NCBI GenBank assembly: GCA_030068145.1 | Contig: JAPJBO010000206.1 | Location: 186,001-250,000 of the forward strand | Source of the DNA: Diplonema papillatum | Taxonomy: Eukaryota; Euglenozoa; Diplonemea; Diplonemida; Diplonemidae | Reading direction: 5' to 3' | DNA length: 64,000 nucleotides | Shown here: positions 10,634 to 44,533 of the stretch, in pieces | Position numbering within the stretch: position 1 is the first letter of the stretch | Layout of the letters: every line of letters begins with the position of its first letter | Notes under the pieces: generated by a model | What the model was told of the DNA's origin: nothing | Databases searched by the model: none | The model's input: the letters and a program-made list of their open reading frames with translations, nothing else | Translations under genes and position numbers: made by a program

Positions 10634-13600
10634 TCAGGCCCAGTCACTCGCGCTATCATCAGAGGGGAGCGCATCGGCAAAACTCAGCCCGCCTGCCGAC
10701 ACTGACTCAAGGTCGGGCGTGTCCGGTCTGTCACCAGGCAACGTTTCGTCGACGTGCCCAGATACAACCTCGCTCGCCTCCGAGTCAACAGGTTCTCTGC
10801 TGAAGCCCTCTGGCTGGCTACTCGCTGCGACACTCACGAGTGCACTTATCTGCGAGGTGACTGTCTGAGAGCTCCAGACTGACCTACCGTCGCATATGCA
10901 GTCGCTTGTGGGCAGCGATTCCCCGTGGCCGGACTTTACCACGGCGAAACGGGGTATCAGCCCCGTGTCCTGCAAGTACTCAAGCGCCATTTCAGGGTGC
11001 TTGAACAGGACGTGCCACAGCTTGTCGGCGTTTGTTGCGCCCGACGGGAGGCGTGCCGCCGGTTCGGGCCCTTTTCCTCTGGCCACTTTAGCCCACAAAC
11101 TCATGCGGTGAGCTTGGCTCGAGGCTTCGACACATCCGATGAACATATGCTCCAGGACGTTCGGGTGGTAGCTTTTGCAGAACGCGCAGCTCCGATAGGC
11201 CCGCCTCCTCTCAAGCATATCCAGGTCCGCATAATCTGCAGCGTACATCGTCATTACGAGCGGGTGGTGTCCGGTCCGGATCTGCCGGATCTCCCGCTCC
11301 GCCCGCACCGTAAGGTGGCAAGGGCGCTTGACGCTTCGCCCGTCTACAATCCTGGCGTATGGCATTGAGACGCGGTGTCGCTCAGCCCTGATGAACGCCG
11401 CGCGTGCCATCGGCTCGGTTGAGGCGAGGGTCGTAAACGCTTTATACCGTGTGACTGCATCTTCTGCCGCTAACGGGGGCTCCCCGGGTGCGTTGCCTCT
11501 CGTCACCTCTCTGAAATGGTGGAAGGCCGCACGTTTCGCGAGGCTGTCAGTTACCTCGTTGCCGCGTAGGCCACAGTGCCCGTACACGAACTGCAGCGTT
11601 GTTGTGTAGCCCTTCTGGGAGATTGCGCTGAGCGCAGACCAGATGTACACGAGCAGCGGTTGCTTCTGCACTTGCGGGCCACCAGCCAGTAGACGCAGGA
11701 GCGACTGCGAGTCAGACAGGATGAGGATCCGCCGGGATTCGGGTGTGGGTGCGAGGATTTCCAATAGCGCCTTCATGGCTGCGGCCAGCGCTAGCGTCTC
11801 GGCTTTGAGGCTGGAAGGGAAACGGCCAGCTGTGTGGGCGAGGTGTGTCGACCGAAGGTTGCCAAGTTGACGGAACGAGTAGTCATGGCCGTTGGCGATG
11901 GTGATCGTTGGTGCACACTCTATCAGGGCGGCAGCCCCACCCCAGGTTCTGGTGTCTGCGTACTGCGTGGTCCATGGTTGCATGATGCGTTCAATGCGAG
12001 ATCCAGGAGGTGGCGCCGGTGGTTGTTCTCTTAGTACGGACCCATCAGTCCACACTGTGCAGTCGGGCACGGGAAGCTTGAGGAGGTATTGCTCGACGAT
12101 CCGTTTCTTCTCAGCCGGACTACGCTTTTTCCCCTCAGGCAGGAAGGGATTGATATCGACTGCCGGTCGAGGGAGCCAAGGTGCGAACGGGTTGAACGTG
12201 AGGCGTTCCCTCGGCTGCTTGTGGGTTCCGGACTTCACCGTCAGCTCTGCGTACCGACGATTCAGCGTCGACGGCCATCCGAAGGTGTCTGGCCACAGGT
12301 GCTTGCGAGGCATCATTCTCTCGCACAGGCTGCCGAGGCGCACGTCAATGTATGTTGCAATTGGGGGGATTCCGGCCTCGCGTGTTGCCACAAAATCAGA
12401 TATGCCTTTACGGCAGCCAAGGACGTGAGCGATCGAGTTTGTATGAAGGCGTTCGAGGATGCCAATATATTTACTCGCCGAGAGTAACAGAAAGGGCCCG
12501 TAGACTGACAAGCAGTAAGTGACCGAGGGGATCACATACGTCAGATACATGCTACGCAGTGTAGCAGTGCTGCACCCCCACGCTTTTCCAGACAGGTGGC
12601 GTAGTAGGTTAGCTCTCTGCGACATGCGCTTGACGGCACGTTCAGCATGCGGGTGGAACGTGAGCTCGTCGTCAATTATTAGGCCAAGAAACTTTGTCTG
12701 CTTGACCCAGCGCACGTTCACCGTCAGCTCGAGGATGACCCTTCGGTCGCGCGACTCTCTATGGACGTCCAGTATGTCCTGGTTGGAGAATCCACTGCGG
12801 CCGTCGACCGTTTCAATGTGCTTCCCGTCGTGTTCAGCATATTCGGGTTCGTTGGCCACGAAGTTGTGGTTCCAGCGCGTTATCCACGCAGGCAGCTGCG
12901 CACCGGGAACACTGATGGTCTGCCTCGTACCCATAAAGCGCAATGGCGGCGGGACTGTCCTTTTGTCCCGCGGGCATAGGAAGATGGCTTCGGTTTTGTG
13001 ATGAGCCAGTCGCATTTTGGCTTTCGTCACCCATTCTTCAACCGCATCAACCACTTTCTGCGCCTTTGTCCCCAGTTCTGCTACCGAGGCCGCTGAGACG
13101 ACCACCCCCACGTCATCAGCAAAAAGTGAAGGGGTTATGGTGTTGGGACCGGCAGTCGTGCTCCCGAGAGAGCCGCGGAGATCTTCAAGCTTCAGGCCCA
13201 ACCCGTCAATACAGAACAGGAATAATAATGGGCCGAGGACTGTGCCCTGGGGGACGCCACGCCCCAAGGAAACCTTCTTCCCAATCGTGCCGTCGATTTT
13301 GTATGCGGCTGTTCGTCCCTGCAGAAAAGCGTGCAACCATTGCAAGTAACGTGGTGGTACTCCACGCTTTTCCATCGCATTGAGCAGGAAGTCGTGGTCT
13401 ACAGTGTCGAATGCGTTTGCAAGGTCAAACGACAGTAGGCACGAGAAATCTCCTCTACTGCGAGCCTGGTCCATGGCTGTGACTATGCTCATGGCCTGCT
13501 CTTCCGTGCCGCGTCCTTTTCGGAATCCGCCCTGTGAGTCACAAAAGGGTCGGACGGATTTGTCCATCGGGTTATCGGTGGTAAAGATTAAACGGTTCTT

Positions 13601-15457
13601 TACCATGACCTCCATCAGCTTCGCGATCACACTCGTCAGAGAGATCGGCCTGTATCCCTCAGGTGTACTGTGGTCCCTGTTAGGCTTGGGGACAGGTATG
13701 ACGTGGGCCTGCCTCCAGCTTGGGGGGACCACTGCTGTCGTCCACGAGATGTTGTACACCTCAAGGAGGAGCCTTTTGGTGTCGTCACCTACGTGTGCCA
13801 ATACCGTCGAGCATAGGCCGTCGGGATCCAGTGACGTTGTTTTGCGGAGCTCGGCGATTGCCCGGTTGAGCTCCAACTCTGTGAACAGTGTCTCCGCCAC
13901 TTCGATCTCGCCACTGAGCTGTAAGCTAGGTTTCCACTGCTTGGACAGCTGGGGACTATTCAAATCAAGTCGGCATATATCCGACAGGTGCTCCCCAAAG
14001 ATGTCAGCCTTTTCCTTGGCATCCACCACTCGCGTGTTACCGACCTTGATTGGTGGGACGGAGTACCGTTGTGACCTGCCGTCAATCCTCCGTATTTGCC
14101 GGTAAAGAAGGCCGATATCCGAGAACAGATTGATCTTGGATACTATCGTGTCCCAATACCCAGCTTTCGCCCTCGTTGCCGCGGAGGTGAAGGACTCCTT
14201 TAACTTCTCGTAGGCGCTTGTCTTTTCCTCGTTCTGAGGGTCGGCCGAAGCCTCCGCATGCGCCGTCGCCTTCTCCTTCTCCAAGCGGCTGAGTTCGGGC
14301 GTCCACCAAGCTTTGTGCACCCGACCGGATGAGGATGCAGGCACGAATTTACGCAGACCAGCTTGGAGAATGGTCGTTGCCTTTTCAGCGAGTTCAGCGT
14401 TAACAGACAGCCTCCCTGCGAGAAGTCTCCTGCTCTGCTCGTCAAGGAACGATGCCATCTCCTCCCAGTCAGCTTTCGCCCAGGAGTACCCTTTGCGGGT
14501 TTGCGTTTTAGATAGCCGGTAACCTCTCGGTAGCTCAAAGTAGACCGGCCTGTGGTCGGAGCCCCATGGTTCAAGGGCCCTCCAGTTGACGACAGCATCC
14601 GGTATTGCGGCTGATATGACAACGTCAGGAGAGGAGGCCCTTGCATGTCTCCTGTGGCACATTGTCGATGTTGCAGGGTCGTTCCAAGTTTTGGCCGAGT
14701 TCAGCTGGAGCCAGTCATGGAGGGTTTCGCCCCCCGGGTTTACAGTGCCCCGTGACCAATCCGTGTGGTGGACATTGAGGTCGCCGGCTATTATCACCGT
14801 GTCGTCCATTGGGAAGGGGTGCATGTTAATCTTCCTGGATTCTACGGCTGTTGGCTGTGGGGGTCTATAAACGTTGTAGACCTTTATCGGAGGTAGGCCT
14901 ATGCGTTCGACTGCTACAGCAATGCATTCCATCGCTGTGTCATCATCGAAGGAGTCCACTGGTAGCAAGCTGGCTGCTAGATTGGACTTGACGAACGTTG
15001 CTACACCTCCGTACCCACCACCCCCAGGCCTGTCACGTCGGTACACCCGATATCCAGGAAGCTCGGGGGGCAGGGACCTGTCACTGAGCCAGGTCTCCTG
15101 CAACAGGAGAATATCGGGCTTGTAACGCTCGGTTAGGCGGCTGATTTCGTCCCTGCTGTTTGGCGGATACTCACGTGCCTTGAATGATCTGCAGTTAAAA
15201 CAGATCACTCTCAGCAACTTTTCCGGGGCACATGTCACCGGCCGGTGTGCCTTCCCTCCTTCACTGGCGCCACTGTGTTTTGTCCTGCCGTGCGGTTTTC
15301 GTTGTCTGGCTCCGCGTGGGCCGGTACGGGGCGTTGCCAGACCCCGCATATTGGCAGGTGCTTGCTTTAGCCCCTCATTGTGGAAGTGTGGGTCGAAAGG
15401 CGTGCGAGGAGGTAGCAACCCTTCCCCTGGTCCTGAGCGGTGAGTCTCGCGGTCCAC
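10634..15457 (-). CDS. LINE-B ORF2 protein: endonuclease / reverse transcriptase / RNase H
   Basis: An open frame of 1607 codons without stops or shifts. Residues ~84-310 are an APE-type endonuclease: CFNCRS, LLLQETW, IAGDLNVHH, SPDVVIS and GSDHRPVYF. The RT follows at ~500-830, with YRPISLTSV, FDLANAFDTVDH, GVPQGTVLGPLLF and the catalytic FADD. RNase H is at ~1130-1290 (WTDGSV, LKAETLAL, LSDSQS, YGHCGLRGNEVTDSLAK). A CCHC motif CAFCKSYHPNVLEHMFIGC lies near 1430. The enzyme nicks genomic DNA and copies its own RNA there. The first codon of the frame is GTG; an internal ATG or frameshifted entry from ORF1 is more likely the true start. Confidence 0.93.
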   Translation of the reverse strand: MDRETHRSGPGEGLLPPRTPFDPHFHNEGLKQAPANMRGLATPRTGPRGARQRKPHGRTKHSGASEGGKAHRPVTCAPEKLLRVICFNCRSFKAREYPPNSRDEISRLTERYKPDILLLQETWLSDRSLPPELPGYRVYRRDRPGGGGYGGVATFVKSNLAASLLPVDSFDDDTAMECIAVAVERIGLPPIKVYNVYRPPQPTAVESRKINMHPFPMDDTVIIAGDLNVHHTDWSRGTVNPGGETLHDWLQLNSAKTWNDPATSTMCHRRHARASSPDVVISAAIPDAVVNWRALEPWGSDHRPVYFELPRGYRLSKTQTRKGYSWAKADWEEMASFLDEQSRRLLAGRLSVNAELAEKATTILQAGLRKFVPASSSGRVHKAWWTPELSRLEKEKATAHAEASADPQNEEKTSAYEKLKESFTSAATRAKAGYWDTIVSKINLFSDIGLLYRQIRRIDGRSQRYSVPPIKVGNTRVVDAKEKADIFGEHLSDICRLDLNSPQLSKQWKPSLQLSGEIEVAETLFTELELNRAIAELRKTTSLDPDGLCSTVLAHVGDDTKRLLLEVYNISWTTAVVPPSWRQAHVIPVPKPNRDHSTPEGYRPISLTSVIAKLMEVMVKNRLIFTTDNPMDKSVRPFCDSQGGFRKGRGTEEQAMSIVTAMDQARSRGDFSCLLSFDLANAFDTVDHDFLLNAMEKRGVPPRYLQWLHAFLQGRTAAYKIDGTIGKKVSLGRGVPQGTVLGPLLFLFCIDGLGLKLEDLRGSLGSTTAGPNTITPSLFADDVGVVVSAASVAELGTKAQKVVDAVEEWVTKAKMRLAHHKTEAIFLCPRDKRTVPPPLRFMGTRQTISVPGAQLPAWITRWNHNFVANEPEYAEHDGKHIETVDGRSGFSNQDILDVHRESRDRRVILELTVNVRWVKQTKFLGLIIDDELTFHPHAERAVKRMSQRANLLRHLSGKAWGCSTATLRSMYLTYVIPSVTYCLSVYGPFLLLSASKYIGILERLHTNSIAHVLGCRKGISDFVATREAGIPPIATYIDVRLGSLCERMMPRKHLWPDTFGWPSTLNRRYAELTVKSGTHKQPRERLTFNPFAPWLPRPAVDINPFLPEGKKRSPAEKKRIVEQYLLKLPVPDCTVWTDGSVLREQPPAPPPGSRIERIMQPWTTQYADTRTWGGAAALIECAPTITIANGHDYSFRQLGNLRSTHLAHTAGRFPSSLKAETLALAAAMKALLEILAPTPESRRILILSDSQSLLRLLAGGPQVQKQPLLVYIWSALSAISQKGYTTTLQFVYGHCGLRGNEVTDSLAKRAAFHHFREVTRGNAPGEPPLAAEDAVTRYKAFTTLASTEPMARAAFIRAERHRVSMPYARIVDGRSVKRPCHLTVRAEREIRQIRTGHHPLVMTMYAADYADLDMLERRRAYRSCAFCKSYHPNVLEHMFIGCVEASSQAHRMSLWAKVARGKGPEPAARLPSGATNADKLWHVLFKHPEMALEYLQDTGLIPRFAVVKSGHGESLPTSDCICDGRSVWSSQTVTSQISALVSVAASSQPEGFSREPVDSEASEVVSGHVDETLPGDRPDTPDLESVSAGGLSFADALPSDDSASDWA

Positions 15458-16511
15458 CGGACAACCTGCCAGCGGTGGTGGGAGAGCTCCTCCTACTTGG
15501 GTGCGGCGACTCAGAACGGCTCGGCGTGGGTGTTTGTGCCCTCACTGTTGTATAGGGTTGGTACTTGGGGCGGGGTGCATCCTGCTGAGTGAGCGCTCTG
15601 TCCGGCGTGGGCGCAGGTTGATCTTGTCCAGGTACAGGTCCCCTACAATCGACATGTTCCTCTCCCATTGTGGCGCTTGTTACACAACTGTGTTCCGATC
15701 GAGAACAATGAACAGACCCTCCAGAGGCTGCTGGCTCCCGACGTTCGGAGGCATCAGTCACGGCCCGTTCAACAGCAGCGATGTCAGAGGGAGCCGGTAA
15801 CTGGGAAGTGGGGGGGCACTCGTCTCGGGATAGCACACCGGAGAGGCTTGGTGCCGCCCCCGCTACCATCGGGGTGGATGTTGGACAGGAAACGGCCTCC
15901 CGGGTAGTCACCAGGTCCGGTGAACATGTGACGGCCACAACGGTGTAGTCAGATGTCTCGCCAGCAGGAGTCAACGTTAGCGGGCCGCCTGTCCGGCCTG
16001 GCAGCAGGGGTGGGCTCGAAGTGGTACTTACTGCATGGGCCGCTGGGGTGCGATGGGTTGCTGTGCAAACACCGCTAACGTTACCATCGGCTCGAAGACA
16101 GACAGGCGCCTCCCGAGGGCGGCAGGCCGTGGAGTCCCTTTCCCTGCGAGGTGCTGACTCTGCGTCACTGGGAGGGGTGTTCCCACGGTGTCCATCACGT
16201 GGGCCCTCATCAGAATTTCTGCGTCGTCTCCGTGATTCGTCGCCCCCATGGGTGACCGCGGCTGAACGCCGATCCCGCGCCCTGGATGACGAGCCTATTG
16301 CGGCATGATCGTGGTAGTCAGCCTCAGTCCTGGCGGTGACAGATCGTACAAGTTGGGCACCTTGCATCGCAGCCTGCGGGCAGTAGGTCGTCTGTTGCGG
16401 GGCAGCACGGTTATAACCCTGCTTCAGGGTATTGATCTCAGCTCGCAGCTGAGCAGCCTCAATTTGAGCCGAGTTCTCGGAGGGTTGGGGCAGCTGTCGC
16501 TTGTCAAATCC
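15375..16511 (-). CDS. LINE-B ORF1 protein, 5'-truncated
   Basis: The frame is open from the truncated end of the element at 16511 to a stop at 15375, about 378 codons. Near its start is a short heptad-like stretch (IEAAQLRAEINTLKQGYN), possibly part of a coiled coil. The rest is rich in Ser, Pro, Thr and Arg with no recognised domain. ORF1 proteins of LINEs usually bind the RNA; that role is inferred from position only. The initiation codon is missing. Confidence 0.7.
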   Translation of the reverse strand, partial: GFDKRQLPQPSENSAQIEAAQLRAEINTLKQGYNRAAPQQTTYCPQAAMQGAQLVRSVTARTEADYHDHAAIGSSSRARDRRSAAVTHGGDESRRRRRNSDEGPRDGHRGNTPPSDAESAPRRERDSTACRPREAPVCLRADGNVSGVCTATHRTPAAHAVSTTSSPPLLPGRTGGPLTLTPAGETSDYTVVAVTCSPDLVTTREAVSCPTSTPMVAGAAPSLSGVLSRDECPPTSQLPAPSDIAAVERAVTDASERREPAASGGSVHCSRSEHSCVTSATMGEEHVDCRGPVPGQDQPAPTPDRALTQQDAPRPKYQPYTTVRAQTPTPSRSESPHPSRRSSPTTAGRLSGGPRDSPLRTRGRVATSSHAFRPTLPQ

Positions 16512-18420: not shown

Positions 18421-18598
18421 GGCACCTGGGAATCAGAAAAAAACCGGAAATATTTAGGGTTCCCGAAACCAGCTGGTGTAGTATCAATTCCTTCTTCGTG
18501 ACATTTCTTGAGTCTTCGTTGCAGAGTCGCCATCAAGAATTTCTGCTTATCGCATCTCATCTTCCTGCAGGTTACTTTGCATTTTAGAAAACTGAAAT

Positions 18599-21310
18599 AT
18601 GGGAGTACCGACCAAGCGGAGCAGAGAAAGTGCACCGACGGATGCAACCGCGAACCCAGAGGCTCTGGCAGAGCCGAAGCCAGACAGCGATCGACGCGCT
18701 CTTTGCTGCACATGTTGGACGCCGCTCCGTCTTGTCGCAAGCGACTTCACTGTGGCGATCCGTGGAAAAAAACGCAGAACGGCGGTGTGGGATTGCGACG
18801 TCTGCAAGAAGGAATTCACAGGCGGGAAGCGCTACCACTGCTTCAATCCGGAATGTGGCGTAGTGGCCCAGGGACGCAACACACACACTGACTACGACTG
18901 CTGCCACGAATGCCACACCTTGCTTCTGTCAATGGGACATGTTGCAGGTAGCGAGGACCTCCCAACTTTCGTTGCCGAGACGCAAGAGCTGGATGAAGAC
19001 GCGAGCATGTTCTCGGACGATGAAGACTCGAATGCAGAGCTCGCACTTGCTGTGCGCATGTCGCTCGCCGATGAAGGTGCAGAGGCGGCCGACAGTGCCG
19101 TCGCCAACGAGGCAGCAAGCTTCGTCACGAAAAAGGAGCTGCAGGCGGAACTCTCGACGAATTTCACCTTCTTGGCAGCGAACTTGCTGCAAGAAATGAA
19201 AACCATGCTGAACGATCGCATCGTCGCACCACCTGCAGCCGGGCCAACGACAGGGCCAACGACAGCAACAGTGGCGCCTTCGCCCCCTCGTACTCCAACT
19301 CGCCAGCACCCGCCTTCTCCACAGACATCTAACGCTGCGAACTCACCCACCGCAGCTTCCGACAACGCTGCCAACTCCAACGAAGAAAAAGCCACAAAAG
19401 GATTGGTTGAAAACAGTACCGAAGAGGCCGCTCTTCTCATGACCCAACTCATGGGAGGGGAGCGAGGCACGACGGTCTGCGGGAAGGTGGTTCTAGAAGG
19501 CAAAAACAACGACAGGGTCTTGTGCAACTACTGCCCGAAGGAAACGTGGTTGATGCCAAAAACGTCCGTGGTAAAGAAGCATTGGGGACGACTCCACTCC
19601 GGGTCAGCTTACAAGGCGAAACAAGAAGCAGCTGTGGTCGTAGCAGCTTCCCAGAAGAAGAGCGTCAGGGTCCTGCCAAATAACGCCATCCGCCGGATAG
19701 CGATCGAAGAACGGATCGCCCTCGACTTCGCGATAACCGGTCAACCGTTTCGTCTGCTGGGCAGCAAGTTGCATCGGAGCACGCTTTCCGACGAGCTAAT
19801 CGGCCGTAACTTTGGGCCAAAGCAATGCAGTGCAAAAACGGCTGAGCTTGCCGGTCGGTGCAGGGTCAAAATGATCGAGGCCCTCCGGTTTCAGAATTGC
19901 TGTCTCATGATAGACGTTGCAACTCGAAACCGGAGGCAGTTTTTTGGCTTTGCTATAAAATGCAAAAGCGATGTTTTCTTTTTGTGTGTTCGCCAGATCC
20001 AGGGGCAAAAAGCTCAAACGTTGAGTAAAGTAGTCGACGAGGTCATTTCCAACTTGGAGAGTGAGCAGATTCGTGTTTTTGCTGTTGTTGCAGATAATGC
20101 GAACAGCATGCAGAAAGCTCTCAGGGATCTTCAGGGGTTCCCAGAGTTGGAAGTCGAGAAAGATGGCGAAAGCTCAGACTCTGAGTCAGAATCCGTCTCA
20201 GACTCAGATTCAGAGTCAGAAGATTCTGCAACTCCGATAGAAGAAGCAGCATCGAGCGAGTGCCTTGTGGACGAAGTACTCGAACATTGTAATGGTCGTG
20301 GTTTTTTTGCCTTTCGTTGCGCAGCACACAGCATGCAGTTGCTGCTAAAAGATGTGTTCGCCGACCCAAACTTTGCAACCCTCAAAAAGTTGATTTTGGA
20401 TACAGCTACTGTTGCCAACTCGCCTCGCGAGAAAGCAGTGCTCCTTGAGCGCCAGGAGAAGGCTGGTGTGAAGTCGCCCAAGGGAGTGCCATTTCCCACG
20501 TCAGTACGGTGGAATTCTCTCGTGGACACAGCGGTGGCCATCTGCGAGCTTCACGCGCATCTGGGCTTAACAAAAGCGCATATATCGCGGCTCAGATTCC
20601 TGGTCGAAGTGACGACACCGATCGCGCTTGCTACAGACAAACTCCAGCAAGATAAAGTAGGCCTCACTGACCTCCACAGTATTCTGTCCACACTGAAAGC
20701 CGAACTTGTCAGACTGCAGGGGCGGTACTCGACTGCAAACGGTAAGTGGCGACAGCAAGCTCTTACACATGCGTTTGCCTGTTTCAAGAAGCGGGAGAAG
20801 CGAAACTACGGGTTCGCCGCCCTGAAGGTCTTCCATGCCCTCGATCCCACAAAGCCGCACACAGAAAAAAGTAATGGATCCCACGAAAACCTCTTATTTT
20901 GTTATCTTGAAAAGTACTGCAGCGACAGGAATCTCCACGGGTACAAGGAAGAGTACGGATCTTTCAAAGGTCTTGGCGTGTGGAACGAGCCGGGAGAAGG
21001 GTTTGACTTTAAGGCTTTTTGGAAAGCTCGAGCCTCTGATATGTGCATTCTCAGTCAATTTGCTCTCTCCCTTGCTGAGTCCTCTGTATCCGAAGCTGCA
21101 GTGGAAAGGCATTTTTCCGCCCTGGCAAAAATACTGACTAAGCACAAAAGCCAGATGAAAGCCAAAACAGTGGACGATTCTCTTCAGCTTCGGCTCAACC
21201 ACCGCCTCCTTTACGGTGACATCTTTGGGGGCGAAAACCGCGAAAATATTGCCGAGAGGAAACGCAAACGTGCAAAGTGCGCGTGGGTGAAGATTGTTTC
21301 CCAATGTTGA
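18599..21310 (+). CDS. hAT-2 transposase
   Basis: An uninterrupted 903-codon frame from ATG 18599. Residues ~38-105 hold a cysteine/histidine cluster (CCTCW, WDCDVCKKEF, YHCFNPECG, CCHEC) like the ZZ-like region of hAT-1. A BED finger follows at ~306-336 (CNYCPKETW...KKHWGRLH). The catalytic core shows CCLMIDVATRNRRQFFGFA (~435), VFAVVADNANSMQKAL (~495), an acidic Ser/Asp/Glu linker (~520-545), FRCAAHSMQLLLKD (~570) and VRWNSLVDTAVA. The C-terminal dimerisation motif SEAAVERHFSALAKILTKHK is at ~830. Domain order is the same as hAT-1, but sequence identity is modest, so the two are separate lineages of one hAT group. Confidence 0.92.
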   Translation: MGVPTKRSRESAPTDATANPEALAEPKPDSDRRALCCTCWTPLRLVASDFTVAIRGKKRRTAVWDCDVCKKEFTGGKRYHCFNPECGVVAQGRNTHTDYDCCHECHTLLLSMGHVAGSEDLPTFVAETQELDEDASMFSDDEDSNAELALAVRMSLADEGAEAADSAVANEAASFVTKKELQAELSTNFTFLAANLLQEMKTMLNDRIVAPPAAGPTTGPTTATVAPSPPRTPTRQHPPSPQTSNAANSPTAASDNAANSNEEKATKGLVENSTEEAALLMTQLMGGERGTTVCGKVVLEGKNNDRVLCNYCPKETWLMPKTSVVKKHWGRLHSGSAYKAKQEAAVVVAASQKKSVRVLPNNAIRRIAIEERIALDFAITGQPFRLLGSKLHRSTLSDELIGRNFGPKQCSAKTAELAGRCRVKMIEALRFQNCCLMIDVATRNRRQFFGFAIKCKSDVFFLCVRQIQGQKAQTLSKVVDEVISNLESEQIRVFAVVADNANSMQKALRDLQGFPELEVEKDGESSDSESESVSDSDSESEDSATPIEEAASSECLVDEVLEHCNGRGFFAFRCAAHSMQLLLKDVFADPNFATLKKLILDTATVANSPREKAVLLERQEKAGVKSPKGVPFPTSVRWNSLVDTAVAICELHAHLGLTKAHISRLRFLVEVTTPIALATDKLQQDKVGLTDLHSILSTLKAELVRLQGRYSTANGKWRQQALTHAFACFKKREKRNYGFAALKVFHALDPTKPHTEKSNGSHENLLFCYLEKYCSDRNLHGYKEEYGSFKGLGVWNEPGEGFDFKAFWKARASDMCILSQFALSLAESSVSEAAVERHFSALAKILTKHKSQMKAKTVDDSLQLRLNHRLLYGDIFGGENRENIAERKRKRAKCAWVKIVSQC

Positions 21311-26336: not shown

Positions 26337-27115
26337 GGCGAGATCTGGGAAAAGAAAGAGGAAGGTGAGACTGACATTCTTTGCTCCTGCTGGTTTTGGG
26401 CTTTTGTTGCTGCCAGAGTGACTAGTAGCAACCCCCGCCTCCTCCCAAACTCTTCTGGTGTTGGTTTGGGTAGGTGCTCTTCCTGCCATGCGCTTTGCTC
26501 CAATTCCCACGGTAAACCATAGGAGATGGCCGACTGCTCAATAAACGGGGGGGTCCCATGCAGTGCTCCCGCTAACGAAAAAGTGCGAGGAATTCCTCAT
26601 GAGGAATTCCTCACCTTTTTCCCGTTGGTGGTATCGTGTAGCCAAAGCACTGCATCACAGTCAACTAGAAGTCTGGGCTGCCACGGGGGCTGGAGCCAAG
26701 AAAGAGAGTCGAGGCTCAGAAGCAGCCCCGGATTTCTTGACCGATTCTCTCCGAGTGACGACACAAGTGCCTTGTTCCATGTGATCTCAATGATTTACCA
26801 GCACGCAGTATCGGGTGGTGGTTGAATTGGAAATGGGCTGTTGCCTCCAGGAATGTGCAGTGTTTATTGTGACAAACAGACTGAGAAGTGCAACACCTGT
26901 ACCGCACCGTTCGCCGGGGCGGAGCCCCCCGGACCCCCCCTGGAGAAAAGCTTCTCGATCTCAGAGCGGCAAAGTAAAGTTGGTCGGGAAACCGAGGCAA
27001 ACCCAAAGCTAATATAACCTGCACAACATGGGGGTAAAAAAAATGGGGGGCACAAAAAAAAAACAAGCCCCAAACAGGTTTTTGAATTCCTCGCCAAAAG
27101 TGAGGTTAGGGGGGC
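26337..27115. other. Intergenic DNA with a perfect 26-bp palindrome
   Basis: No gene recognised. Positions 26587-26612 are a perfect palindrome made of two GAGGAATTCCTC halves around CATG. A T-rich pyrimidine stretch at 26380-26480 may belong to a 3' region of the ATPase gene. Confidence 0.6.
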
Positions 27116-27131
27116 TGAGCCAATTCACCTA
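27116..27131 (+). repeat. Left terminal inverted repeat of the two-gene transposon
   Basis: TGAGCCAATTCACCTA, preceded by the duplication GGGGC. Confidence 0.9.
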
Positions 27132-27394
27132 GCCCCCCTGAAAATGACTTTAGCTCGATTACGCGTCGATTACACTCGATTACACTCGATTACGCTCGAT
27201 TACGCTCGATTACACTCGATCAACTTTTGGGTGAATTGGGGGGGTACTGCAGTAATTGATTAACGGCGTAACACTCAGGCAATCTTGATTGGTCGGTTCA
27301 ACGTACCCACTAACGCACCTTCTTCCGGGGCTAAAAAGGTGCTGATGACAGGATATTGAAATCGGAATAAAAACAAGAATATTAGTCTGAAAAA

Positions 27395-29569
27395 ATGCCC
27401 GAGACAGGCCGTGCAGCTGGAGACCAGGAAGTTCGGGCTGACTTGCGGAAGCAGGTTGTCGAGTGCATACGGGCTCGGGTACCAGTATCTCGCATTAGCT
27501 CGCATATATTCAATTTAGCGCAGCTAGTACTTGGGCCTTTCGGCATTCCGTGCGGGCCAGTTCCAGGCGATAGGGCTGTTCGCCGAGCGCTTGGTAGGCA
27601 CCTTGTCCTCGGTGACATGGAGTTTCTGCTCCGGCTTGGGGGTGGTGACTTCGTCATTGCCGGGGATGCAGGAGAGCTTCCGGGGAGCAAGGATATCCTC
27701 TGCCTGACGTTCTCGTACCTGGACACGATGGAGCAGAGGTGGAGGACGCGGCTTGTGCTTGCAGCACTTGTGCGGCAGAAGGATCCAGCAACGACGACGA
27801 AGTATCTCCAGTACGTGCTGGACTACTTTCAGAAGCTGCAAGAGTCGCTCCTTGCCTTGGGGTTCGATCTCCCTGGCGATGCACTGCTCCCAAGGATGAA
27901 GAAGGTTGTTACAGACAGAGGCCTCTTCACGACGGCTAGTGAGTTGTACGCCTGTGGGGCCGTCGACGAGGTCATCATGGAGCCCGTGCATCGCCTGCAC
28001 CTTGCTGACAAAGCCGTCCAAAAATGTCTGGCGACCGACCTTCCTTTGCGATCACTCATTCCATTGGCGTATGATTTCATCGCAGGAAACGATGCCTTCC
28101 ACCACTGGCTGGAAGAAAACGCTGGCGTGAGCCCAGCAGGCGTGTTTTGGGCACCAGTCAAAGCCGGTCGGTTTTCAACACTGACGGCCGGAGCTTACAG
28201 CCTTTCAGAAGAGATTCGGGGAAAACCTCTTGCCGAGTGGGCGCGGCTTTATCTTTCCACGCGGCAAGTCCTGCTGTACGCGTCCAGCCCAATAGCAAAG
28301 AAGCGTGTGCCAAACCGGTTCCTCAAGCTGTATGAGGCCCTCGTGGGCACGTCGTTCCTTCCGAAGCTCCGCGTCCTCCGCTTGCTGTTCACGTCGCTCT
28401 GCTATCCTCTGACGCACTTGCTTTGGCATCTTGACCAGCTCGGCACCGTCAAGGAGGCGTGGTGCAGCATCCTGTGTTGCCTCTGCAAGAATGTGGGTGA
28501 CCACGATCTTCAGAAATTGGTCGTGCAGGGCAAGAAGGACTGGTTCGGATGCGTCGTCCCGTTGCAGATCCGAGTGGTGGAAACCGCATCCAAGTCGAAG
28601 CTGAAGTTCGGTGTTGTGGAACTCGAAGATGTTTTCCTTGTCGAGGACAAGCCTGGTGCAAAGCTATCTGGATACGCAGCAGCTTTAAAAGACGCCCTCG
28701 CTCCCCATCGACAGTCCGACATACCCCAAGAAATTGAGTGTACTGCAGTCTCCGAGGAAGCCGAAGTTCTGGTTGGGCACGTAATGAAATACGTGCGGCA
28801 TTTCAAGCGCCTAGAATTCGACAAGTACATCAACATGTCGAATGCAGCCAACGCACCCCCGAACTGCAATCCGAATTTAACGGAAACCCCTGTAGGTGTG
28901 GTGAAGCAGACTGTTGAAGACTGCAAGAACCAGACTGTCACCGATGAGGTACTCAGGGGTATAGCTGTTATTCGAGGAGGAAACGAACCTGAGATCAGCG
29001 AGTGGCTGCTTCGGGACTGCGCCGTTTCGACTCTTTGTGATACGGTGTACCGTTCATGGGAAAACTGCATTGAAAGGTCCCACCGCCTGGCAGACGAGTT
29101 CGAAGCACACACCCAGCGAAAACAGAATCTTGCTGATGAAAGCCAGCGCAAGCGCGATGCAAGGGAAGAGATCGCGAAGACACGCTTGGAGGCAATCGAG
29201 CAGTTGACCCCGAAGGAGATTGCTGAAAACGGCACTCGCGCATGCGTATTGAGTCAAAGCATGAAGCGACGCCTTCCCAAAAAGGGCAAAATGAGCGACC
29301 TTCTCGAAGCCATCATCGCCTTCGACAAGTCCGACTTCAAGCTGCCGACTACCTACGGCAAGGTCGGGCGAAAGCGTCCGGAGAAGCCCGGGGGAAAGCA
29401 CTCTGTGAAACGTCGGAAAAAGAACCCTACGGTTAAGGCTGGGAAATCATCGAACAAGTCAGGCAGTAGTACCTCGTCCAATGGGTCCGACAATTCCGAC
29501 GAGTCCGACAATTCTGACGAGTCCGACGAGTCCGACAGCGCCGACGATTCGTCAAGCGCTGACTCCTGA
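27395..29569 (+). CDS. Putative transposase of the two-gene element (divergent RNase H-fold / hAT-like)
   Basis: An uninterrupted 724-codon frame from ATG 27395. No BED finger and no classical hAT dimerisation motif. An RNase H-like strand pattern is suggested by VIAGDAGELPGSKDILCLTF (Asp91) followed by the hydrophobic RLVLAALV. Then comes VVTDRGLFTTA (Asp174) and, 25 residues on, MEPVHRLHLADKA (His199), which recalls the hAT CxxH segment though the Cys is replaced. The C-terminus is basic (KRPEKPGGKHSVKRRKKN), a likely nuclear signal, and ends in a Ser/Asp/Glu-rich tail. The shortened copy has lost most of this gene, which supports a trans-acting role. Assignment to a hAT-like lineage is inference; no third acidic residue could be fixed. 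Confidence 0.6.
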   Translation: MPETGRAAGDQEVRADLRKQVVECIRARVPVSRISSHIFNLAQLVLGPFGIPCGPVPGDRAVRRALGRHLVLGDMEFLLRLGGGDFVIAGDAGELPGSKDILCLTFSYLDTMEQRWRTRLVLAALVRQKDPATTTKYLQYVLDYFQKLQESLLALGFDLPGDALLPRMKKVVTDRGLFTTASELYACGAVDEVIMEPVHRLHLADKAVQKCLATDLPLRSLIPLAYDFIAGNDAFHHWLEENAGVSPAGVFWAPVKAGRFSTLTAGAYSLSEEIRGKPLAEWARLYLSTRQVLLYASSPIAKKRVPNRFLKLYEALVGTSFLPKLRVLRLLFTSLCYPLTHLLWHLDQLGTVKEAWCSILCCLCKNVGDHDLQKLVVQGKKDWFGCVVPLQIRVVETASKSKLKFGVVELEDVFLVEDKPGAKLSGYAAALKDALAPHRQSDIPQEIECTAVSEEAEVLVGHVMKYVRHFKRLEFDKYINMSNAANAPPNCNPNLTETPVGVVKQTVEDCKNQTVTDEVLRGIAVIRGGNEPEISEWLLRDCAVSTLCDTVYRSWENCIERSHRLADEFEAHTQRKQNLADESQRKRDAREEIAKTRLEAIEQLTPKEIAENGTRACVLSQSMKRRLPKKGKMSDLLEAIIAFDKSDFKLPTTYGKVGRKRPEKPGGKHSVKRRKKNPTVKAGKSSNKSGSSTSSNGSDNSDESDNSDESDESDSADDSSSADS

Positions 29570-29898
29570 TTAACCATGGGTCACTTTAGCTTCTCGTTCC
29601 TCTGCTCAAGTAATTTTGTTTGCGGTCAGCAGGCTCATTTTCATTCAGACGACGTCCTCATTCTTGCTGCTCTTACATAAACCATCTGGCCTGTACGGAC
29701 TCTACGAAAACGCATGCCGTCATATGTTTGTCCCATCTCTCTTGCGTTCTTGTCGTTCTCTATCAGTGGCTGTCGTGCATTCGATGCCTTGTCTCGAATG
29801 TTGTGTGCGTTCAAGCGTGTGATCTGGTTGTGCTTCGCTTCGTGCTGCATTGATAATCTTTCATTGTGAACTTTATTGCAGGGGGTTTGAATTCTAAG

Positions 29899-30924
29899 AT
29901 GCCGCGCGAGAATGAGATCAGCTTCACCATGAAGGTGATTTGGGGGGAGCGCACAAAAAAGCTCCTTACCAAAAAGGACCGAACAGCGGCCGCAGAGGCC
30001 GTTTTGTACGTTGAGCAGGGGGGTGACGACCTTGCGCAGTACGTCAAAAAGGCACGAGACGCAGCGGTGCCGATCGCGCGAAGGGAGGGCTTTACTGTCT
30101 CCCTAGCCCCCACCGCCGTTCGGTACACGCTGCCGAAATCCGCCGCGCGCCTCGACGACGATGACACCGGCATCCGCGAGGTCGTTGGGCCGGCGGACTT
30201 GTTCGCAGCAGCCAGAGCGGACGCACGACAGCTTATTGTCGTGCTGGACGCAACCGAGAAGCGGGCGGCAGGCAAGCAAGCGAACACAGCGGCCCAGCTA
30301 GCCGCTAAGTTAACCGGCGCCGACCTGCAACCGGCCTTCAAGGTCGGTAAAGGCATCTCGCCCACCGTATCTTGCGTGGGATGCTCAAAGGTGGTGTTCG
30401 TCGCCAAGGAGGGGGACAAGGACAAGCTCAGGCTAGCCCCCTACGAAGCCCACATAAGCGGCTGTGAAAAGGGCGCCGCTCTGCTGGAGAAGACCGCGGT
30501 GGCTGCGGTCGAGAAGAAGCGAGGGTCTCATTTGCAAGACTCTCGAGTTGGGGCTCAAGCGCGACGAGAGGAAGAAAGGCGAGCCGCTGCCGCGAAAGAG
30601 GATCTGTCCAGCTACAGATCTCTTTTCGACATCTGGAAGAAGCCGAAGCCGACGAAGCCTGCAGGCACGAGCACAGCCGAAGACAGGGCCTCGGAGCTAC
30701 CGGATGCTGACCCGCCGGGGGAGCTACCGGATGCTGACCCGCCGGTGGAGCTACCGGATGCTGACCCGCCGGTGGAGCAACCGGATGCTGACCAGCCGGT
30801 GGAGCTACCGGATGCTGACCAGCCGGTGGAGCTACCGGATGCTGACCCGCCAGGGACTGTCCTGGTGAAGAGGAAGGCAGAGGAGTGCCAAGAGCCGAGG
30901 AAGAAGCTCGTCTTTCTGCTGTAG
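29899..30924 (+). CDS. Zinc-finger protein, second gene of the two-gene element
   Basis: Begins at ATG 29899, the first ATG after an acceptor-like TTTATTGCAG (29871-29880); about 341 codons. A C2HC cluster, CVGCSKVVFV ... YEAHISGC, lies at residues ~168-200, spaced like a BED-type or related DNA-binding finger. A Lys/Arg/Glu-rich helix follows (QARREEERRAAAAKED). The C-terminal third has seven or so tandem ELPDADPP(V/G) units, encoded by a 24-bp minisatellite. Since the putative transposase lacks a BED finger, this protein could supply terminal-repeat recognition in trans; that is inference from context. The gene is absent from the shortened copy. Confidence 0.62.
   Translation: MPRENEISFTMKVIWGERTKKLLTKKDRTAAAEAVLYVEQGGDDLAQYVKKARDAAVPIARREGFTVSLAPTAVRYTLPKSAARLDDDDTGIREVVGPADLFAAARADARQLIVVLDATEKRAAGKQANTAAQLAAKLTGADLQPAFKVGKGISPTVSCVGCSKVVFVAKEGDKDKLRLAPYEAHISGCEKGAALLEKTAVAAVEKKRGSHLQDSRVGAQARREEERRAAAAKEDLSSYRSLFDIWKKPKPTKPAGTSTAEDRASELPDADPPGELPDADPPVELPDADPPVEQPDADQPVELPDADQPVELPDADPPGTVLVKRKAEECQEPRKKLVFLL
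30695..30860 (+). repeat. 24-bp coding minisatellite
   Basis: Units of GAGCTACCGGATGCTGACCC plus four bases are repeated in frame about seven times; variants alternate CCGCCGGTG and CAGCCGGTG. Confidence 0.9.
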
Positions 30925-31348
30925 TGCTGCAACGCAAGGTGCGGATTTCGTGTGCTTTCGAGCGGCCTAGCGCTTCTTCTTTTTTCATCATCGTTCATCA
31001 TCCCGTCTTGCTAGGCTGCTCACAGTCGCTCGAAGATCTTTGTCCCTTTTCGCCACCAACTCGCCTGCAGTCCCCGAAAGCTTCCGGTCTCATATGCACA
31101 TCGCCCACTTGCCTGCGGTTTCCGTCCCTCGTATGCTTATGCTTGGCACTTCTGGGGCCAGACAGTGGTCAACATGGTCGCCCATGGGCCAGTCAGGGGT
31201 CCACCAGTGGTCGAACCCAAAATACTAGTGTCAATCTCGATCACACTCTACAACGCTCTACTACACTCTACTACACTCTATTACGCTCGATTACGCTCGA
31301 TTACACTCGATTACGCTCGATTACGCTCGATTACACTCGATCAGGGGG

Positions 31349-31364
31349 TAGGTGAATTGGCTCA
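31349..31364 (-). repeat. Right terminal inverted repeat of the two-gene transposon
   Basis: Exact reverse complement of 27116-27131, followed by GGGGC. Confidence 0.9.
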
Positions 31365-31496
31365 GGGGCACTGGTCCCATGGGGGAAAAAATAAGTAGAC
31401 CTGCCCCCTGCCTGCTGTCTCTGGCTGCTTCAGCAAAATGCGCCTTTATGGAGTCAACCTCTTAGGGTTTACTCTGGTTGTTTTCGCGCAAGAATT

Positions 31497-34202: not shown

Positions 34203-34318
34203 ATCTCATGAACGGCTACCTCATGATTTCACCCGAAGCGGAGTATCCCTCTGGCGAGCTTGCTCTCGCTTTCTCGCGAATTCTCGGCCTCGCGATTTTC
34301 GAAGTGTAGATTAGTAGA

Positions 34319-34494
<176 letters not shown>

Positions 34495-34553
34495 GTAGAC
34501 CTGTTTTCACGTGGTGCCTCCCTGTGCGAGAGGCGTCCACGACTCCTTCAGTT

Positions 34554-35120
34554 TCAAGTAACCGCCGATGCTCCCGCAGGTTGCGAGTGGGGGTCCGTGT
34601 TCAACTGGGGGTGGTGCCTTGTACAGCACCTCGCGATCCCTTCGTTGTCTGCTTCGCACTCGCCGCAGCGCCCCAGTCTGTGGATCGAGCAGTATAGCAT
34701 CCGCGGCCTTAGGCCGTCTCCTTCATGGTGGTGTTGTTTATACCGGCAACACGTCTCCGCTGGCAAGCGCTTTTTCGCACATTCCTTACATCGGGGCTTT
34801 CTGTGTAGCGTGCAAATCTCGCCGGGGCGTGATGTGTTCACCGCGTCTTCTGGGGCCTTCTTCGGTTGCGACCCTCCGCACGCTCCTGCACCTGAAACCT
34901 TGTTTATCATCTCCGCCCTCGCCTTCCAGTCGGCCTTTCCTTGTGCCCATCCTGCGGGGTAGGCTTCCTCCGGGATATAGGTTGCCGCCCATTCCAGGTG
35001 TTGGGGGTACAACGCGGTCTCCGTCCGTGTCGGCTTCAGCGTTCTTACGTGCTCCCGGATGCCGAGGATGACCGCGTCGGTTGTCTCCGTGAGTTGCGCG
35101 CGCCGCGAAGCACCCCTCAC
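34554..35120 (-). CDS. Small protein with two tandem Cys/His modules
   Basis: A minus-strand frame of 188 codons ending at 34554. The C-terminal half holds two copies of one pattern: C-x2-H-x4-C-x2-C-x9-CC-x(2,4)-HH. Copy 1 is CTLHRKPRCKECAKK...CCRYKQHHH; copy 2 is CSIHRLGRCGECEAD...CCTRHHP. Exact conservation of spacing with different filler residues is strong evidence of a real, selected, probably zinc-binding module. The N-terminal part (PQHLEWAATYIPEEAYPAG) is unassigned. The frame begins with GTG and stays open into the (CA)n tract, so it may be an internal exon with acceptor TACACAG near 35130. I do not know the family. Confidence 0.6.
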   Translation of the reverse strand: MRGASRRAQLTETTDAVILGIREHVRTLKPTRTETALYPQHLEWAATYIPEEAYPAGWAQGKADWKARAEMINKVSGAGACGGSQPKKAPEDAVNTSRPGEICTLHRKPRCKECAKKRLPAETCCRYKQHHHEGDGLRPRMLYCSIHRLGRCGECEADNEGIARCCTRHHPQLNTDPHSQPAGASAVT

Positions 35121-40036: not shown

Positions 40037-42287
40037 TCTCTCTCTCTCTCTCGGTCCTTTGATGGTGTGAATTGATGCCTCTGTCTCTCCGTTCAGGTAC
40101 GGTTGTGCCATGCATACTCGCGCCCGGTGTGTCACAGCTGTTTAAGTGGTTGACGTGACTCCGGAAGAATCGCTTTTGGTGCGCCTCCATTGTGGTGCAA
40201 CTCAGAGCTGGTGCACCCAATCGGTCGCCCGCCCTTTTCTCTATTACTCTGTTTTCGGCCTCAGCGAAAATACGTGTGGTCCACATGTGGGCGCTTAAGG
40301 TTCGAGGGAAACAAAACCCATCCCCCTATATGTGTAGGGGGGGTGGGGGGAGAAACAGCGATTTTCCTGTAATTTTACCTTTTTCCCCACTTATCCGTGG
40401 TTCCTACTTTGGACCCGGTCGGAGAATTAACGTGAGGAAACCCACACGTTCCACACGTGGAGCGTAAGCCCTGCCCTCGTGGCCACGCCTACGAATGTCA
40501 GTATCTCCAAAAGAAAAAAGGGGGGCACAATAATCAAAAAATGCAAGTAAATTTAATACGTAAATAGTCGGCTGCACAAAAAAGGCAAAATCACACCCGC
40601 AACCACTCAAAAGAAATTGATGATGCCCCCTTTCTCGAGCGTTTCTTTTCTCCATTTAATCAGTCCGCCAAAGCCAGGTAAAGCATCGAGGTCATCCCGA
40701 CCCGTTGGCGGCTGCAACACACATGGAAAATACTCGACGTTGCTGCTTCGACTCCGAATGGAAGGGAGGAAATATAGAGGTAAGGGGCAAATACAATACA
40801 AACACTATCTGATTTGTTCTTCGCTTGCACCACCAAAACAAGATTGGAATATTCGAGCGGAAATGGGACGACCCCGGGGGGGAAGAAGACCCTTCCCACC
40901 TACCACGTTTCAGCCCCTGCTAAACGAGCGCCACGTGGGGGGTGAAGTGAACGGATTCATCCCTTCTTTCAGCACCAAAAGTCCAGGAATACCGGTATTC
41001 CCAGCAATAGAGAGCAAAAGACGCATAAAAGGAGAGAATAGCCGTAAAAGGAACAAAAAGAAAGTTTACCACGATTACCATTTCTATTCAGCCCCCTCTG
41101 CCAACTAGAGCCACGGAGGTGTGAATCTTATATTATATATAAGACTCACCCACCGGTTGCTCGGACACGGTCGTAGAGGCCTTCTCCCCAAGACGGGGTT
41201 CCCTGTGCACTCGTAGTAGCCTGGGCTGCTACGAACACGCAGGCACCCAGGTTCCGCGCTGATGTCTCCAGCAAAAAATTCATCAGTTACCGCCAATTCG
41301 TTATTTTGTTAGAATAGAAGCCTTTGCGCTACACAATGCGGTGCAGGTGCCAAAAGTTAGTGCAGCGACCGCACGGAACTCAGCAGGGAAGTTCCTATCC
41401 CCAGGGAATGTTGACCATTTCACCTTCGGAGAATGGTGACCATGGATTCACCTTCGGAGAATCCACCTGTCCTATGCCTTAAAGTAAACGTGTCCCAGTA
41501 AAGCGACCCGTGTCCGAATTAGTTGTTCCCCGTTCCAACACGTGTGTTGGACGCGCAACACGAGCAACAACCCGAAGCTTCTTCGCCCGACCAACTAGCT
41601 CCGCTCTGCGGGACAGTGCAGGCACGCGATATCACCTCCTTTGAGACTTCGCAACTGGCAGTCTCCCCAAGCATTTCCTTACCAGTTTTCGCGCTAATAA
41701 AAAAGGAACTGAAAAACTGGCCGGCTTATATTCGGCCGGCTCTTTCCGCCGATCAGACCAAATCATGCCTCCGGGGCCACTGTTGTCATGCCAGGGCAGC
41801 CAGGTAGTAAGGCAGCGCCTGCATAACTGGTTTCGTGGGGCGTGCTGGCTCTGCCGGTGCCATCGCAGATGTAATTCTACCGGCGGTGTGGCAGAGCTTA
41901 GCTCCAGGGTTGCAGGCCCCCTGCCTCCCTCCGCGCGGAGTTGAGCACATTACAAGCATGCATGTCCTTGCAGCCCCCTCCCTCCCCCAGATGCCAAAGT
42001 GAACTCTGATCGGGAACACAAAACTTGCTTTCGGTTGGGGAAAAAAATCCTCCCAGGACCTCGAATGCAGCTCTTCGCTTCAGGCCCGAAATGCTACTCG
42101 AGCTCAGTCAGAGGTCCTGCATGGTGAGGTCCAGTTTCAGAAGCTGGAGCTAAAGATGGTATGCCTAAGTCACCCGAAATGCGGGCGTGCTGCAACCAAA
42201 ACGCGTGTATACATCCACACCCGAAAAGCGGGTGCGACACCCGCGTTTTTTACTTCTTTCATCAACTCCAGCTTCTTTTGAGGCTGG
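40037..42287. other. Gene-poor stretch with a dispersed repeat
   Basis: No gene recognised. 40733-40830 is nearly identical to 51805-51905 (CTTCGACTCCGAATGGAAGG through TGATTTGTTCTTCGCTT), a dispersed repeat. 42205-42240 resembles 50290-50330 (CCCGAAAAGCGGGTG motif). Confidence 0.6.
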
Positions 42288-42772
42288 TGAGCCAATTCAC
42301 CTAGCCCCCCTGAAAGTGACTTTAGCTCGATTACGCGTCGATTACACTCGATTACACTCGATTACGCTCGATTACGCTCGATTACACTCGATCAACATTT
42401 GGGTGAATTGGGGGGGTACTGCAGTAATTGATTAAAGGCGTGACACTCAGCCAATCTTGATAGGCCGGTTCAACGGGCCCACTAACGCACCTTCTTCCGG
42501 GGCTAAAAAGGTGCTGATGACAGGATATTGAAATTGGAATAAAAACAAGAATATTAGTCTGAAAAAATGACCGCGACAGGCAGTGTAGCTGGAGACCAGG
42601 AAGCTCGGGCTGACTCACGGAAGCAGGTTGTCGAGTGCGTACGGGCTCGGGTACCACTATCTCGCATTAGCTCGTCTTCTTGTTGCGTTAGTATAGTCCT
42701 TTGACAGAGTGAGCCGGTGCCTCTCATCTCACCTTTAAAACACGGCTGAGTCACGCATGCTCTTGACAGACG

Positions 42773-43467
42773 CTAGCGTCCGACATTTCGCACGCGCGTC
42801 GCAGTCGTTGGGTGGTATTGACAAGGGGTTTCATCGGACACTCGGATGAGCTTCGTTACTTCACTGGAGGCCCGCTTGGCTGCCTTCGAGTTGCGTTTCC
42901 GCGTTGGTGTTGTTGCTTCGCTTTTGGACTCCTTCTTCGACTTCGCACGGTCCCAACGTCCTGGTCTGCCCTTGGTGCACGTCTTGCGCTCAGTCTGCGC
43001 AGTTCGTCTCTCCTGCTTGACTCCGTGATTCCATCGAGCCTGCTTGCGCTCCCATCCCGACGGGTAATGCGTCTGCGGTCGAAAACTGCCATTCAGTGTT
43101 GCAGCTTTGCGGAGCCCAGCCTGCGGTACGGCTCGCACCTTGTCGCCGGCCTACTTCGCCGTCTGCTCTCGTGCGGCGGCTTCGTAGGCGCGCATCACAG
43201 CTTCAAACGCCTGCTGGTTTGCTATTTGTGGTCTCTTGTTGAGTCCGGCCATGTTCCCGCCTCCGAGAGACGTCAGGACGTTGACTTGCATCTCAAGCGC
43301 CGGGTGAATCGGCGTCTGCACGATACTCGTCAGCCGTCGCATCGCGCTCTTCATCGCGTACGATTTCGCGGTCGCCGAGTCCCGATACTCGGCTGTCGCT
43401 CGTCTCTGAACCTCATCCATCGCGTGATTCGATAGAGCATCGGCGTCTTCTTGTTGCGTCAGTGGGG
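42773..43467 (-). pseudogene. Captured gene fragment inside the deleted transposon
   Basis: The minus strand encodes about 230 residues starting around ALSNHAMDEVQRRATAEYRD and running through QVNVLTSLGGGNMAGLNKRP and AYEAAAREQTAK. A TAG at 43151-43153 interrupts, then the same frame continues AGDKVRAVPQAGLRKAATLN and a Lys/Arg-rich tail to a stop at 42773. Apart from that one stop the frame is clean. The segment is bounded by the direct repeat CTTCTTGTTGCGT (42679 and 43448). Related sequence of its 3' end lies at 47650-47770. The family is not one I recognise. Confidence 0.6.
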
Positions 43468-43492
43468 AGTCATTTGCATGCAAATGAGTACC

Positions 43493-44065
43493 ACAATAGC
43501 TCGCATATATTAAATTTAGCGCAGTTAGTACTTGAGCCTTTAGGCATTCCGTGCGGGCCAGTTCCAGGCGATAGGGTGTTCGCCGAGCGCTCGGTAGGCA
43601 CCTTGTCCTCGGTGACATGGAGTTTCTGCTCCGGCTTGGGGGTGGTGACTTCGTCATTGCCGGGGATGCAGGAGAGCTTCCGGGGAGCAAAGATATCCTC
43701 TGCCTGACGTTCTCGTACCTGGACACGATGGAGCAGAGATGGAGGATGCGGCTTGTGTTTGCAGCACTTGTGTGGCAGAAGGATCCAGCAACGACAACCA
43801 AGTATCTCCAGTACGTGCTGGATTACTTTCAGAAGCTGCAAGAGTCGCTCCTTGCCTTGGGGTTCGATCTCCCTGGCGATGCACTGCTCCCAAGGATGAA
43901 AAAGATGGTTACAGACAGAGGCCTCTTCACGACGGCTAGTGAGTGTACGCCTGTGGGGCCGTTGACGAGGTCATCATGGAGCCCGTGCATCGCCTGCACC
44001 TTGCTGACAAAAATGTCTGGCTACCGACCTTCCTTTCAAGGAAGGTCGGTCGCCAGACAAGGACC
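43493..44065 (+). pseudogene. Transposase fragment of the two-gene element
   Basis: Parallel to 27507-28045 with several substitutions and single-base deletions (near 43580 and 43945). It retains DFVIAGDAGELPGSKDILCL and MKKMVTDRGLFTTA. Near 44025-44060 a short inverted duplication (CCGACCTTCCTT / AAGGAAGGTCGG) marks the deletion junction. Confidence 0.8.
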
Positions 44066-44533
44066 TTTGCGATCACTTAGCGCTTCTTCATCATTCATCA
44101 TCCCGTCTTGCTAGGCTGCTCACAGTCGCTCGAAGATCTTTCTGTCCCTTTTCGCCACCAACCCGCCTGCAGTCCCCGTGCTTGCTGCCATGATTTAGAA
44201 CATCTTCATCTCGAGAGCTTCCGGTCTCATATGCACATCGCCCACTTGCCTGCGGTTTCCGTCCCTCGTATGCTTATGCTTGGCACGTCTTGGGCCAGAC
44301 AGTGGTCAACATGGTCGCCCATGGGCCAGTCAGGGGTCCACCAGTGGTCGAACCCAAAATACTAGTGTCAATCTCGATCACACTCTACAACGCTCTACTA
44401 CACTCTACTACACTCTATTACGCTCGATTACACTCGATTACGCTCGATTACACTCGATCAGGGGGTAGGTGAATTGGCTCAGCTGGACTCCGCCGTGTGC
44501 TAATATGGACTTTACAAAAATACTGGGTTCATA

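Follow-up and report, generated by a model that had tools for sequence, protein, structure and literature searches.

Recent activity of a two-gene DNA transposon with TG..CA ends in Diplonema papillatum, and a LINE that inserts in its subterminal arrays

A 4,249-bp insertion in the genome of Diplonema papillatum, with TG..CA ends and two open reading frames (ORFs) on one strand, raises the question of whether catalysis and end recognition in a DNA transposon have been divided between two proteins, and to which superfamily such an element might belong. It lies at positions 27116 to 31364 of a 64,000-nucleotide stretch of DNA (positions 186,001 to 250,000 of contig JAPJBO010000206.1 in assembly GCA_030068145.1; hereafter the window), and an initial annotation had described it as a two-gene DNA transposon. 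The element is real and recently active, the description as a two-gene DNA transposon holds, and the gene pair recurs in a second, strongly diverged family. Taken together, we consider it probable that this is a recently active, autonomous two-protein DNA transposon of unassigned superfamily.

Ends, duplications, and recent movement

The element begins with the 16-bp sequence TGAGCCAATTCACCTA (27116-27131, forward strand) and ends with its reverse complement (31349-31364, reverse strand), and these terminal inverted repeats (TIRs) are abutted by exact copies of GGGGC (27111-27115 and 31365-31369) as a target site duplication (TSD). A 2,194-bp derivative with the same ends (42288-44481, forward strand) retains only fragments of gene 1, has lost gene 2, and is bordered by a TSD of its own, GCTGG (42283-42287 and 44482-44486), which is also exact. 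A motif search of the window tolerating up to three mismatches (0.37 matches expected) found TGAGCCAATTCACCTA at 27116 and 42288 on the forward strand and at 31349 and 44466 on the reverse strand, all exact and with no others, in agreement with the annotated pair of insertions with precise inverted ends and separate 5-bp duplications.

Both genes are on the forward strand, with gene 1 (27395-29569) coding for a 724-amino-acid (aa) protein with an acidic, Ser-rich tail, the presumed transposase, and gene 2 (29899-30924) coding for a 341-aa protein, as annotated. The separate C2HC finger attributed to the smaller protein can be read as C159-x2-C162-x22-H185-x3-C189 (a CX2CX22HX3C arrangement; codons 30373-30465), and a 27-bp tandem repeat coding for ELPDADPPV units (30693-30851) varies among copies, giving a gene 2 product of either 341 or 337 aa. 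Inside the TIRs are the previously noted subterminal arrays of the 10-mer TTACRCTCGA, of which gene 2 protein is the presumed binder. Five units at 27170-27219 fall within the left array (27157-27222), and six at 31281-31340 within the right array (31237-31343), in which CTCTACTACA grades into TTACRCTCGA; both arrays are read on the forward strand.

Searches of the whole assembly (271 Mb in 2,910 contigs) give 1,015 exact occurrences of TGAGCCAATTCACCTA (527 + 488), compared to none for the reversed control. Exact 5-bp TSDs flank 19 of the 26 copies with both ends read in two sets combined, and further copies with these ends and duplications, for which the initial annotation had proposed a search, are present. 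The first set (19 retrieved copies and the two window elements, n = 21) includes 14 copies with exact 5-bp TSDs, one with a 6-bp match, and six without an abutting repeat; in the second set of 10 copies, picked for an intact gene 1, both ends are readable in five, and all five have an exact 5-bp TSD. Four of the six copies without an abutting TSD (L037, L038, L045, and L046) contain sequence of a long interspersed nuclear element (LINE), and in L042, also one of the six, another TIR end comes after the copy. An A or T occupies the middle position in 17 of the 19 exact TSDs, whose GC content is 37%, so a preference for GC-rich targets, hinted at by the two window copies, is rejected.

Seven full-size copies differ by 0 to 10 substitutions across ∼4.2 kb. 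The window copy and L033 have no differences in 4,249 aligned bases and are flanked by different TSDs (GGGGC and TCAAC), and the family has therefore moved recently. The 724-codon frame is open and complete in at least 37 of 63 scored matches of the protein search, with 100% identity as rounded (62 of 2,232 candidates were scored in the genome search with gene 1, and counts of open frames are lower bounds), and it is broken in at least one full-size copy, L040. Deletion derivatives keep the family ends and 5-bp TSDs, which suggests mobilization in trans. The element thus has the inverted ends, fixed TSD, genes of its own, many copies, and deletion derivatives expected of a cut-and-paste (class II, TIR) transposon. 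A further subfamily, represented by L038 and L050, also has this 16-bp end and is ∼82% identical across the left 0.5 kb, but its interior is different.

A second family with the same gene pair

The window copy and its close relatives (family A) share both genes and the six terminal bases, TGAGCC, with a second family (family B), whose TIR is TGAGCCGGTCCACCCC (158 + 162 = 320 genome copies, compared to none for the control) and whose array 10-mer is GTCTATCACA. The gene 1 relative in family B codes for 707 aa and is 46% identical to the 724-aa protein, with D91, D174, and H199 identical between the families. Downstream of it, L062, a family B copy read without its right end, codes for a 312-aa protein that has the same CX2CX22HX3C finger and is 28% identical to gene 2 protein. 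L062 is the one full-length open gene 1 copy of family B among the scored matches (63 of 778 candidates), and the same scored matches, with family B as the query, include no third lineage.

Between the families, the proportion of synonymous differences (pS) exceeds that of nonsynonymous differences (pN) in both gene 1 (pS 0.77, pN 0.39; 700 codons) and gene 2 (pS 0.73, pN 0.54; 284 codons) by the Nei-Gojobori method, and these ratios, which are rough because synonymous sites are near saturation, point to purifying selection on both genes since families A and B split. Of the two family B copies in which both ends are readable, one (L064) is flanked by the 5-bp TSD ATATA and the other (L063) by GATAC plus one extra base. 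By eye, the 5-bp repeat is offset by one base at L063 and at family A copies L041 and L045 (two of the six without an abutting TSD), and this is possibly a trace of end processing.

The arrays have an asymmetry that is absent from the initial annotation. The left and right 10-mer arrays are on the same strand in eight of eight copies, six from family A (including the window copy) and two from family B, and the window copy has 11 TTACRCTC units forward and none in reverse. The TIRs are inverted, yet the subterminal arrays are direct, and this is kept in both families. With the arrays running the same way, the two ends are nonequivalent, and a complex assembled on them should therefore be asymmetric; an array-reading protein, if one exists, would see the two ends presented differently.

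The evidence gives good support to a split, two-protein system. Within it, the transposase is most likely the 724-aa protein, which would cut at the TGAGCC/GGCTCA ends and join them to staggered 5-bp cuts in the target, presumably by a DDE mechanism; catalysis is assigned to it only by position and conservation because neither protein matches a known transposase in Pfam or among PDB sequences. For the 341-aa finger protein, the most likely role is to bind the 10-mer arrays that lie within each end and to aid assembly of the synaptic complex. The closest functional analogy is with TNPA and TNPD of En/Spm (CACTA), in which there are also two element proteins, one a presumed binder of tandem subterminal motifs; TNPA binds the end motifs and helps to build the complex. 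En/Spm differs in having a 3-bp TSD and CACTA ends, and the element described here is without a Pfam match. The recent amplification and the dozens of intact large frames make this a tractable case of catalysis and end recognition split over two proteins, and of why both ends carry arrays with the same direction.

Relationships to known transposases

Pfam gives no significant match for either gene of family A, for family B gene 1, or for segments of all four proteins, and a PDB sequence search gives nothing significant for the gene 1 or gene 2 proteins. A clear match to a known superfamily, the outcome that the initial annotation had named as counting against its proposal, is therefore not seen in Pfam or PDB sequences. 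Lines below the cutoff in Pfam (Saf4_Yju2, ACCA, Clathrin, DpdA, CSS-motif, and Pox_A3L) and in PDB (prefoldin, UPF0234, PAP5, and a phosphatase) are far below it and were judged to be chance. Searches with gene 1 protein in IMG/VR gave two pattern matches as a single protein and 89 with the two-family alignment, and the same alignment gave 93 in GTDB genomes, with none confirmed in any of the three; both collections cover viruses and prokaryotes and thus have little bearing on relatives in other eukaryotes.

The faint hAT-like core proposed for gene 1 protein is not supported. The core pattern of hAT transposases is D..TD..CxxHxLxL, and the order and spacing of D91 ... T-D174-R ... EPVH199RLHLA resemble it by eye, which we take as a lead only. 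These three residues are kept in both families, as noted above, and Pfam and profile comparisons lend the resemblance no support. At the CxxH position (E196-P-V-H199) the His is retained and the Cys is replaced by Glu in both families. In Hermes, W182 sits beside the first catalytic Asp, and a Trp two residues past D91 was not found in the alignment of families A and B; W182 is named in PMC4763223.

The window also contains two ordinary hAT transposase genes (2269-5022, reverse strand, and 18596-21307, forward strand), which are 32% identical to each other and have a Dimer_Tnp_hAT match, a DUF659 match under the cutoff, and an additional Cys-rich N-terminal region. The hAT C-terminal dimerization domain was not found by Pfam in the gene 1 proteins, whereas these two window proteins score; a strongly diverged domain of this type could slip past Pfam. 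Neither does Pfam match a finger domain in the 724-aa protein, where a finger that it does not recognize would go unseen. BLASTP of gene 1 protein against one of the window hAT transposases is at chance level, as is comparison of its profile with a profile of both (two sequences in each profile), for which 32 of 100 column shuffles score equally high.

Of the alternatives, the one that survives best is a very divergent hAT of the hAT5 type in which the fused BED finger has been lost and a separate protein supplies the finger. PMC4763223 gives 8-bp TSDs, the hAT domain, and CxxH as the marks of hATs and describes subterminal repeats as assisting them, and hAT5 elements, a Repbase group with 5-bp TSDs, are described in PMC12730594. 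The 5-bp TSDs here differ from the usual 8 bp (variants of 5, 6, and 7 bp are known) and fit hAT5 only, and the element resembles hAT5 in being a DNA transposon with TIRs and in its by-eye order of core residues. It is unlike hAT5 in having no detectable hAT similarity, either by Pfam, including the C-terminal domain, or in the chance-level profile comparison, in having the finger on a separate protein, and in lacking the CxxH Cys and the Trp after D91. A very distant hAT relationship is neither proven nor disproved, because the profiles have two sequences each and the fold model described below is unusable; we regard it as a real, if distinctly lesser, possibility.

Alternatively, both genes could be cargo of a carrier element with ends that are moved by an unrelated transposase coded elsewhere, a view consistent with there being no recognizable catalytic domain in either protein. 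However, families A and B retain the same gene pair even though their ends and arrays have diverged, and gene 1 is intact in no fewer than the 37 copies counted above, and we consider cargo status unlikely.

An affiliation with integrase-type transposons (Ginger2/TDD, IS3EU/GingerRoot, and IS481EU) is suggested by the TG..CA ends, which are occasional in GingerRoot and IS481EU according to PMC10045372, and by the 5-bp TSDs that Ginger2 TDD-4 and TDD-5 make, as given in PMC2836005. Nonetheless, the ends of both families are TGAGCC rather than TGTNR, and Pfam reports no integrase (rve-like) domain, making the affiliation very improbable. The En/Spm parallel, likewise a two-protein system with subterminal motifs, together with the 2- to 5-bp TSDs listed for the CMCT group (EnSpm, Chapaev, Transib, and Plavaka) in PMC12730594, could place the element there, but the same paper gives mostly CA..TG termini for the group as opposed to TG..CA here, the C(2)C and H(3-4)H motifs between D174 and a downstream Glu are not evident in the alignment by eye, and Pfam gives no match, so we find CMCT membership the least credible of these assignments.

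We therefore favor an autonomous two-protein transposon of unassigned superfamily and, judging from the sequences, possibly of a new one. Several observations weigh against this reading: neither protein resembles a known transposase in Pfam or PDB sequences; a fold model of the 724-aa protein from a two-sequence alignment has a mean predicted local distance difference test (pLDDT) score of 35 and a predicted template modeling (pTM) score of 0.21, values too low to speak for or against the RNase H fold with an all-helical insertion that is typical of hATs; the lineages number only two, and one of these is represented by just one copy that is both full length and open; synonymous sites are nearly saturated, with the gene 2 ratio the roughest (28% identity, 284 codons); and of the 26 copies with both ends read, an abutting TSD is missing in six, and in one the match is 6 bp long.

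A LINE in the subterminal arrays

In several copies, a subterminal array contains the 3′ portion of a LINE, and in L032 (4410-5165) the element resumes after it with ∼10 bp repeated; the LINE is also in arrays at L034 and L044, and it is full length at L105:428-5950. The single 1,840-codon frame of L105 codes for APE endonuclease and reverse transcriptase domains and also gives a subthreshold OTU-like match; its reverse transcriptase matches LINE-1 ORF2 and R2 structures. An open 1,845-codon frame is present in at least 32 of 68 scored LINE matches (68 of 12,587 candidates scored in the protein search).

The LINE 3′ end, TTTGCATTCTAATCCAAA, occurs 591 times in the genome, compared to none for the control, and 365 of these (∼60%, including at least two places counted twice among those listed) match a strict pattern with TTACRCTC no more than 12 bases downstream. 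Among 20 places failing this pattern (the first such failures listed, minus three known places in L038 and L044 that are within arrays), 16 are, by eye, in variant arrays or ends of the transposon group, some of them degenerate (as at the LINE junctions in L065, L066, L072, L082, and L084), and four are in other DNA (L073, L076, L077, and L080). By extrapolation, ∼90% of LINE 3′ ends are in arrays or ends of the transposon group. The junction nearly always reads ..TCCAAA followed directly by C(G/T)ATTACR, with a one-base shift in some rows, even though the pattern allows a spacer of 0 to 12 bases. Within the 10-mer arrays, this APE-type LINE thus uses essentially a single phase for insertion, and the transposon is its preferred landing site.

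These elements may be links in an ecological chain, with an APE-type LINE that has specialized on the arrays of a transposon. Xenopus Tx1L, in Tx1D composites, is a precedent in principle for such target choice by a LINE and an analogy for one that targets a DNA transposon; the likeness drawn here is a functional one, and the target in the present case differs in being one phase of a 10-mer subterminal array. No title or abstract listed in searches of open-license PMC papers described LINEs in subterminal arrays, which does not deny that such papers exist. With hundreds of insertions to analyze and essentially a single phase of a 10-bp repeat in use, this LINE offers a clear model for target choice by APE-type LINEs.

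In family B copies L062, L063, and L064, a related LINE 3′ tail separates gene 1 from the left 10-mer array, and, because it is present in all three retrieved copies, an old LINE insertion has apparently been incorporated into the family. Elsewhere in the window, a Cys-rich segment (34611-34991, reverse strand) aligns over 129 residues, with 32% identity, to the tail of the array-targeting LINE, and a frame of 1,635 residues (10637-15541, reverse strand) that combines APE endonuclease, reverse transcriptase, and RNase H belongs to another LINE. A tandem-repeat array with 8-bp spacing is located at 34257-34549, and there is a second one near 35.4 kb.

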